Below are positions 15,973 through 17,654 of a stretch of DNA of 36,182 nucleotides, in pieces; the stretch's first letter is position 1; the number at the start of each line of letters is the position of its first letter. The translations under genes and the position numbers were made by a program. The notes under the pieces are model-generated. The model saw nothing but the letters and a program-made list of their open reading frames with translations. It did no database searches and was not told the origin of the DNA. Source of the stretch: Planctomycetaceae bacterium (GTDB lineage Bacteria > Planctomycetota > Planctomycetia > Pirellulales > Pirellulaceae); the NCBI GenBank assembly GCA_007695205.1, contig REEF01000475.1, positions 1 to 36,182 on the forward strand, given 5' to 3'.

Positions 15973-16686
15973 CTAACCAACCTTATTTGTTTCACGAATG
16001 ACGACATAACCGCCACTCGGGCCCGGCACCGCGCCACGGACCAGCAGCAGATGATTTTCGGGGTCCAAGCGAACTACCCTGAGATTGCGAACCGTATTGC
16101 GCTGGTTGCCGTACTGCCCGGCCATCCGAATGCCCTTGAACAACCGACTTGGATCGGCGCTCATGCCCGTGCTTCCCGCGTGACGATGGACTTTTTTCAC
16201 GCCGTGCGATGCCCGCTGACCGGCGAAATTGTGACGACGCATCACGCCCGAATAGCCGCGGCCCTTGCTGGTGCCCACAACGTCGACCGCTCGAACCCCC
16301 TCCAGGGACTGGACCGTCACCTGCTGCCCCACCTGAGCGTCTTCGACCGGCCCGCGGAGCTCGCGAATGAACTTCTTGGGTTCGCACCCAGCTTTGGCAG
16401 GGAGAACAGCACCGGCGGACGAGCGGCGTTTGGCTCGCTTGCTTCCGAAGTTGGCAACATGACCACGTTCTGACCGACTGGCTTGGCTGGCGCGAATCCG
16501 CTTGCCACGGGGACGCTTCTTGTCTAGAAACCCCAGTTGCACGGCTTCGTATTTGTCTCGCTCCAAGGTTTTCAATTGGAGCACATGACACGGACCCGCC
16601 TGTAGCACCGTCACGGGAATGGCGCGTCCGGATTCGTCGTAAATCTGAGTCATGCCGACTTTAACGCCGAGAATGCCTTTCACCAT
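15973..16686 (-). CDS. rplC: 50S ribosomal protein L3
   Basis: MVKGILGVKVGMTQIYDESGRAIPVTVLQAGPCHV...RGYSGVMRRHNFAGQRASHGVKKVHRHAGSTGMSADPSRLFKGIRMAGQYGN. Start placed at conserved MVKGILGVK rather than 16794. Confidence 0.96.
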   Translation of the reverse strand: MVKGILGVKVGMTQIYDESGRAIPVTVLQAGPCHVLQLKTLERDKYEAVQLGFLDKKRPRGKRIRASQASRSERGHVANFGSKRAKRRSSAGAVLPAKAGCEPKKFIRELRGPVEDAQVGQQVTVQSLEGVRAVDVVGTSKGRGYSGVMRRHNFAGQRASHGVKKVHRHAGSTGMSADPSRLFKGIRMAGQYGNQRNTVRNLRVVRLDPENHLLLVRGAVPGPSGGYVVIRETNKVG

Positions 16687-16728
16687 CGGTCGAATTCCTA
16701 ATACTATGGTCGGTTGCCTGCGGGAGTC

Positions 16729-16810
16729 TGAGAACGCGCCTGTAGCCGCGATGGACTTCAAGTGTTCGGCGGGCTGCCGCCAACCGAACCGCAATGCTAC
16801 AGCCGTCTCA
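16729..16810 (-). promoter_or_regulatory. Candidate structured RNA element in the rpsJ-rplC intergenic region (rplC 5' leader)
   Basis: Nested stems on the plus reading: TGAGA(16729-33)/TCTCA(16806-10), CTGTAGC(16740-46)/GCTACAG(16796-802), GTTCGGCGG(16764-72)/CCGCC-AACC-GAAC(16777-89) with a GCTG loop. The ribosomal operon neighbours here are otherwise tightly packed. Confidence 0.5.
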
Positions 16811-16859
16811 GCTTACCCGAGCGGCCTGTGCCCATAAACTTTCTCAAAGGAAAAATGAA

Positions 16860-17189
16860 CTACCTCGTGGACGCTTTAATCTTGATATCAACGCCAGCCG
16901 GTAGGCTCAGCTTGTTCAATGCCTCGATCGTCTTCGCCGTAGCCTGAACGATATCGATCAATCTCTTGTGTGTTCTGATCTCGAACTGCTGCCTTGCCTT
17001 TTTATCGATGTGCGGGCCGGACAACACCGTATACTTTTCAATCCGCGTTGGAAGAGGGATCGGGCCATGCACCTCGGAGTGCGTGCGCTTGGCCGTGTCC
17101 ACGATCTCTGCCGCACTCTGATCGAGGATCGCGTGATCGTACGCCTCCATCCTAATGCGAATCACCTCGTGACTCGAAGCTGCTGACAC
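16860..17189 (-). CDS. rpsJ: 30S ribosomal protein S10, first gene of the superoperon
   Basis: [96 protein letters not shown]. Confidence 0.98.
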
Positions 17190-17343
17190 ACCTGACTCCT
17201 TCTAAACCCTCAATCCACTCCAACACAACATCGACACCGCCACCGCCCCATGTCACCAAGCAAATGGTCACCGAGTGAATTTGGAGCGGGACAGGGAAGC
17301 TTAAGCACATCTCCGAACGCCGTCAACAGCCCACCGAGTCGGT

Positions 17344-17362
17344 TCGGAAAATATTTTTCCGA
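17344..17362. promoter_or_regulatory. AT-rich palindrome in the divergent rpsJ / mini-protein intergenic region
   Basis: TCGGAAAA-TAT-TTTTCCGA; 8-bp perfect arms in a ~465-bp divergent intergenic region. Confidence 0.35.
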
Positions 17363-17654
17363 ATTCCGGCCAGCCACGACGATAGCGGAGGGCTCGCACC
17401 GAAAAACGGAGGAAAAACCCGTGCCGCCACCAGCTACAACAAATATGCTCCCAATTAACACCCTCCAGATCTCACCGAACCCAGAGACGTGTAGCTCTTT
17501 GCGGGGAGTGGCGTGGCTCACTAAGAGGCGTTGGTGCTGGCGCTGCAGGGGTGCGGTTGCCAAATCACCGCTTCCCAGTGCGAACCAAGGCTGTTAGTAT
17601 AACGAAGTTCTAAAACACGTAAAGCGTACTTCGTCAAAGAATCCGAGGGAAATC

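Follow-up and report, generated by a model that had tools for sequence, protein, structure and literature searches.

In E. coli, the S10 operon is under the control of ribosomal protein L4 (PMC10931766), and control from a site within an operon has precedents in S8 for the spc operon and S7 for the str operon (PMC10931766). Eckert and Weinberg (2020, PMC7247131) additionally described an L4 r-leader in Archaeoglobi, located before rplC-rplD-rplW-rplB and rated borderline by its authors, and an L2 r-leader in Alphaproteobacteria, predicted within the S10 operon before rplB. Planctomycetes are poorly covered by surveys of RNA regulators. They are not mentioned in the main texts of two open-access r-leader and ncRNA surveys, and our search of open-access papers returned no further report of an rplC leader.

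We analyzed a window of 36,182 nucleotides from a Planctomycetaceae bacterium, in which the ribosomal operon lies on the minus strand in the order rpsJ, rplC, rplD, rplW, rplB, rpsS, the genes being identified with NCBIfam. The rpsJ-rplC gap (16687-16859) is 173 nt long, while the remaining gaps from rplC through rplD-rplW-rplB to rpsS are 8, 2, 42, and 18 nt, and the initial annotation was correct in calling this spacing unusually long against the 2-42 nt found elsewhere in the operon. The element described here lies between rpsJ and rplC, inside the operon rather than at its 5' end, as had been proposed. It also appears undescribed, as was suspected: a cmscan search against the 4227 families of Rfam 15, run for the window at the gathering threshold and for six loci at E<=1, gave no match. 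Upstream of rpsJ, no gene is evident over about 440 nt (17190-17633), ahead of divergent plus-strand genes, one of which looks by sight like a 3-hydroxyacyl-ACP dehydratase. The promoter of the operon, and a second leader if there is one, probably lie in this upstream region.

The Pirellulales element resembles the E. coli S10 leader (Rfam S10_leader) in being a structured RNA on an rpsJ-rplC-rplD operon with an operon protein as its presumed ligand. The E. coli leader, however, is long and multi-hairpin, includes a NusA-dependent attenuator, and lies upstream of rpsJ, whereas here we find a single bulged hairpin between rpsJ and rplC, and no U-run directly follows this hairpin in the window. 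With no Rfam match and a position downstream of rpsJ, it is not a leader of the E. coli type. The E. coli S7 str and S8 spc sites are likewise internal, and an r-protein acting there keeps the genes farther down the operon from being translated, but the genes, the ligand, and the RNA structure differ. The Archaeoglobi L4 r-leader shares the placement before rplC-rplD-rplW-rplB but is archaeal, and the Alphaproteobacteria L2 r-leader shares a predicted site within the S10 operon and a ligand guessed from closeness but stands before a different gene in another lineage; both are set apart from our element by description, not by structure. We are probably dealing with a new r-leader motif, perhaps with a new ligand and in an unusual internal position.

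A predicted bulged hairpin conserved before rplC

Comparison of rplC leaders shows a conserved hairpin at the level of predicted structure, composed of helices P1 and P2, a UA bulge, and a variable arm P3, with a single-stranded AUG/YGGA segment on its 5' side, all placed before the rplC ribosome-binding site (Table 1). The core of about 60 nt (about 55-60 nt without the arm) is conserved across Pirellulales with the consensus UAUG-N2/3-YGGA, GCC..CGGG, UA bulge, A-U, variable arm P3, U-CCCG..GGC-RA. In relatives, the pattern UAUG-N(2-3)-YGGA-A-GYY..NGGG-UAA-(arm)-U-CCC..RRC-RA, followed by an AAGG-type Shine-Dalgarno sequence and the rplC ATG, is near-universal just upstream of rplC in Pirellulales. 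The window reads UUAUG..GCC..CGGG-UA-AG-(stem)-CU-CCCG..GGC-AA from 16837 to 16714, where the stem is the one identified in the initial annotation. This match to the pattern of relatives indicates that the stem belongs to a larger conserved element, of which it forms the variable arm.

Table 1. Coordinates of the rpsJ-rplC region and its predicted RNA element in the window.
Feature	Position	Strand	Description	Support
rpsJ (S10)	16860-17189	-	upstream gene, same cluster	NCBIfam NF001861 / TIGR01049
rplC (L3)	15973-16686	-	nearest downstream gene, presumed first target	NCBIfam TIGR03625 L3_bact, 6.7e-73
Shine-Dalgarno-like AGGA of rplC	16695-16698	-	between motif and start codon	read from sequence
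Whole motif (Pirellulales rplC leader)	16714-16837	-	5' end at 16837	R1 21.2 bits, E 9.7e-6; R2 41.6 bits, E 7e-8
Unpaired AUG	16833-16835	-	5' edge of motif	A/T/G conserved in 88/91, 91/91, 90/91 leaders
YGGA position	16826-16829	-		order-wide alignment: G 88/91, G 88/91, A 91/91
P1 5' strand GCC	16823-16825	-	pairs with 16716-16718	94.8% paired cells; 2/3 pairs changed on both sides
P2 5' strand CGGG	16816-16819	-	pairs with 16721-16724	two-sided changes
UA bulge (of GGUAA)	16814-16815	-		U 87/91, A 89/91
A-U and covarying N-N pair opening P3	16812-16813	-	partners 16725-16726	
P3 5' strand UGAGA	16806-16810	-	partner 16729-16733	P3 pairs: 28-47 two-sided changes each
Genus-level P3 extension: CUGUAGC/GCUACAG and GUUCGG..CCGCCGAAC hairpin	16734-16805	-		genus comparison
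P3 3' strand UCUCA	16729-16733	-	partner 16806-16810	
P2 3' strand CCCG	16721-16724	-	preceded by conserved U at 16725	U 87/91, CC 81-87/91
P1 3' strand GGC	16716-16718	-	followed by RA at 16714-16715	

A small internal loop, differing by one base in size among sequences, separates P1 from P2, and the length of P3 is variable. The A-U pair at the opening of P3 is present in 85 leaders, and the pair next to it occurs as GC, CG, UA, or AU with 38 two-sided changes. Conserved letters that are unpaired comprise the AUG, YGGA, the UA bulge, and the RA after P1. Measured in 87 leaders, the 3' end of the motif precedes the rplC start by a median of 22 nt, mostly by 17-30 nt, which means that P1 adjoins the ribosome-binding site, and an AGG or AAGG is found at the place equivalent to the window's AGGA in most relatives. 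A freely varying length would have spoken against the element, but the distance of the core to the rplC start is near-constant.

In the genus of the window (loci L003, L004, and L012), the YGGA letters are lost and replaced by CACA- or CAUA-like letters at 16826-16829, which makes this genus a divergent member. A small GGC/GCC hairpin could form at the former YGGA, and the AUG, the UA bulge, and P1/P2 are kept.

The three inverted repeats of the initial annotation are indeed found at 16729-16810. They had been read there on the plus strand, and their mRNA-strand form is UGAGA/UCUCA, CUGUAGC/GCUACAG, and GUUCGGUUGGCGG-CAGC-CCGCCGAAC. The outermost, TGAGA/TCTCA in the original reading, is the base of the order-wide P3, while the other two are an extension at the genus level. 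The claim of a structured element in the rplC leader therefore stands in that the element is real and conserved, but its conserved part is mostly outside 16729-16810 and extends past both ends. The inner helices of the extended P3 are intact in 3 of 4 genus genomes (G000, G001, and G003); in the fourth, G002, pairing in the outer arm is disrupted and the tip shows partial compensation. An arm similar to CUGUAGC/GCUACAG also occurs at locus L060, and the extended arm is missing from most relatives. It is present as a single copy in the window's genome, on which ground we rejected a mobile or repeated palindrome.

The folding energy of the 83-nt piece is -37.4 kcal/mol (z = -2.3 versus shuffles, with 8 of 200 equally good), and that of the whole rpsJ-rplC gap is -63.2 kcal/mol (z = -1.9). 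Taken without comparative evidence, this stability is only suggestive, and it is the comparative evidence rather than stability that leads us to regard the element as more than chance.

Covariation and model searches

We looked for L3 in 60 related genomes and inspected the rplC upstream region of 59. A covariance model of 15 base pairs (R1), trained on 15 relatives with the window left out, recognized about 35 of the 44 rplC leaders not used in training (E<=0.01) in 160,838 bases from 59 sources, gave no match away from rplC leaders at this threshold in the same sequences, and recovered the whole motif of the held-out window. A refined model built from 50 sequences (R2) matches 91 of 95 rplC leaders; in a further set of 80 loci chosen by name, among them many non-Pirellulales, it matches 48. 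When whole genomes were searched with R2, 31 of 39 matched at E<=0.1, the best match was always directly upstream of rplC, and only two weak second matches appeared. The motif is thus found consistently just upstream of an r-protein gene and on its sense strand.

The initial annotation had named conservation and compensatory changes in the helices as a check, and covariation in the core proved very strong across about 20 Pirellulales families. In an alignment of 91 sequences, 93.1% of cells are standard pairs, 14 of the 15 pairs show two-sided changes, and there are 329 two-sided cells compared with 96 +/- 10 after shuffling; the covariation score is 0.640, against 0.217 +/- 0.011 for shuffled alignments and 0.06-0.16 for slid partners. 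This alignment was fitted to the structure, and a model-free MAFFT alignment (A2) and a set of one sequence per family serve as safeguards. A2 gave 92.4% paired cells and 42 two-sided cells versus 12 +/- 3. The one-per-family set, covering 17 families, gave 91.9% paired cells, two-sided changes at 12 of 15 pairs, and 41 two-sided cells versus a maximum of 22 in 1000 shuffles. RNAalifold independently gives the same helices. The long arm of the L060 row was removed before the A2 alignment, whereas R2 and every count made after it rest on sequences left unedited.

Candidate control of rplC and its alternatives

A structure found only and consistently before an r-protein gene is the hallmark of an r-leader (PMC7247131). 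Since the motif sits only and consistently before such a gene, we consider it probable that the gap carries a cis-acting structured RNA, an r-leader between two cistrons, that acts on rplC translation. An operon-encoded r-protein in excess over rRNA would bind P1, P2, and the bulge together with the 5' AUG/YGGA strand. The bound protein would stabilize P1 beside the rplC Shine-Dalgarno sequence and block loading of the 30S subunit, so that rplC would be repressed, and translational coupling across the gaps of 2-42 nt would spread the repression to rplD-rplW-rplB and on. The upstream rpsJ would be spared direct control. That AUG, YGGA, and UA are conserved while single-stranded is consistent with a protein-binding site, and these unpaired letters point to a definable site of protein-RNA recognition. 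Several observations count against the r-leader reading. The conserved AUG is without an explained role, the YGGA letters are lost in the window's genus, such that a ligand reading YGGA would have to tolerate their loss, and three loci that are Pirellulales-like (L051, L105, and L109) are without the motif.

For the ligand, we infer about equal odds for L3 and L4, with L2 or another operon protein less likely. L3 is suggested because rplC is the next gene, and L4 because of precedent. Closeness of a gene is a poor guide to the ligand according to Eckert and Weinberg (PMC7247131), and the heuristic of prior ligands in the literature favors L4. One specific version, which we put forward tentatively and would not bet on at even odds, is autoregulation by L3, which would recognize the UA-bulged hairpin along with the AUG/YGGA strand and thereby repress rplC translation; an internal L3 site would then have replaced L4 acting upstream of rpsJ as the control point of the S10 operon. 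If true, S10 would be uncoupled from the large-subunit genes in Pirellulales. We know of no described bacterial r-leader that has L3 as its ligand. As a compact element in a highly conserved operon, present nearly order-wide, the motif offers a clean system for the balance of r-protein synthesis, and it could be used to ask whether S10-operon control arose anew, at a different site and perhaps through a different protein.

Resemblance to an rRNA site is frequent among r-leaders but not obligatory. The initial annotation had pointed to rRNA mimicry in leaders of this kind. Here we found no likeness to 23S or 16S rRNA above that of shuffled sequence, and this too counts against the r-leader reading. 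R2 with filters off had no match in six Pirellulales 23S loci (best E 1.5), and with a profile of the conserved unpaired blocks 23S and 16S rRNA scored no better than shuffled sequence (rRNA up to 19, shuffled rRNA maxima about 14-15 with sd about 3, true leaders about 28-33). Likenesses picked out by eye to H71 (CGGGUAAGUUCCG), to the L2 region (GGAAGCGGGUUAGC), and to the segment before H97 (CGGAAAGGAUAA, with the AUG in 1 of 6 23S sequences) were dropped as chance.

An alternative that we think unlikely, though worth weighing, is that the RNA responds to a signal other than an r-protein, as a small-molecule riboswitch, an RNase III processing site, or a stability element that sets rplC expression apart from that of rpsJ. 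Some cis RNAs of r-protein genes may bind no r-protein (Eckert and Weinberg, PMC7247131), and the variable and at times long P3 arm would offer a target for double-strand cleavage. However, a motif that is confined to the region before rplC and, a few exceptions aside, single in each genome follows the pattern of an r-leader, and a processing site needs neither conserved unpaired letters nor a fixed distance to the Shine-Dalgarno sequence.

The almost invariant AUG raises the question of a minimal uORF of 7 codons (AUG ... UAA) that controls rplC by translation or stalling, and in 58 of 91 leaders a UAA does lie in frame, 18 nt after the AUG. We find this quite improbable: at least 23 of the 91 leaders retain the AUG and the UAA in different frames, the encoded peptides are nearly all different (UGG and CGG share codon 3 about evenly, and codon 4 varies among AAG, AUG, and ACG), an upstream Shine-Dalgarno-like triplet is missing for 40 of 87 AUGs, and the bulge in the RNA structure already accounts for the UAA. 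A leader-peptide or uORF regulator was accordingly rejected on frame and peptide diversity. The view that the gap is plain spacer whose inverted repeats arose by chance or from a mobile palindrome, to which the fold of the 83-nt piece at only 2.3 sd better than shuffles might lend color, deserves almost no credence given covariation across about 20 families, position-specific conservation, and the single-copy arm. An N-terminal extension of L3 can be set aside just as firmly, for although the rplC frame is open to 16794 (mechanical ORF 15973-16794), alignments with L3 homologues start from the 16686 ATG, loop and spacer lengths ignore frame, and the changes are pairwise-compensatory.

Distribution across planctomycetes

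As far as sequence comparison can tell, almost every member of the Pirellulales that we examined has the motif, in a single copy per genome apart from a few exceptions. The rpsJ-rplC gap in this order is about 110-410 nt. Loci L092, L097, and L118 match the motif despite only 57-58% L3 identity. The motif is absent from the roughly 25 loci of other Planctomycetia families that we examined, nor did the Phycisphaerae or other loci that the scan brought up match it. Most of the nonmatching loci have a shorter or different gap, or no rpsJ ahead of rplC. A draw across the phylum added no further member, only Pirellulales matching, although with 15 candidates scored per genome this is a weak test.

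The three Pirellulales-like loci noted above (L051 being from genome G041) have a gap of 130-550 nt and no recognizable motif. They are apparent losses and would be useful for tracing what replaces the control. In the Gemmatales-type genomes (L119-L122 and L186) there is no rpsJ before rplC. Their rplC leaders share a different block, G(C/U)(C/U)GAUCGAACCGCGG ... CCGGACG-NGNGGUCGGC, in which a long-range stem is possible, and this is possibly another, unrelated rplC leader.

Some of the assemblies carry titles at odds with their content. This is true of the MAGs of L102, L126, L136, and L137, and a contig titled 'Candidatus Nealsonbacteria' bears a Pirellulales-like L3 together with the motif, while 'Acidobacteria' and 'Oscillospiraceae' contigs appeared as L3 relatives in a planctomycete search. 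Contigs with such discordant titles are likely mis-binned or mislabeled.
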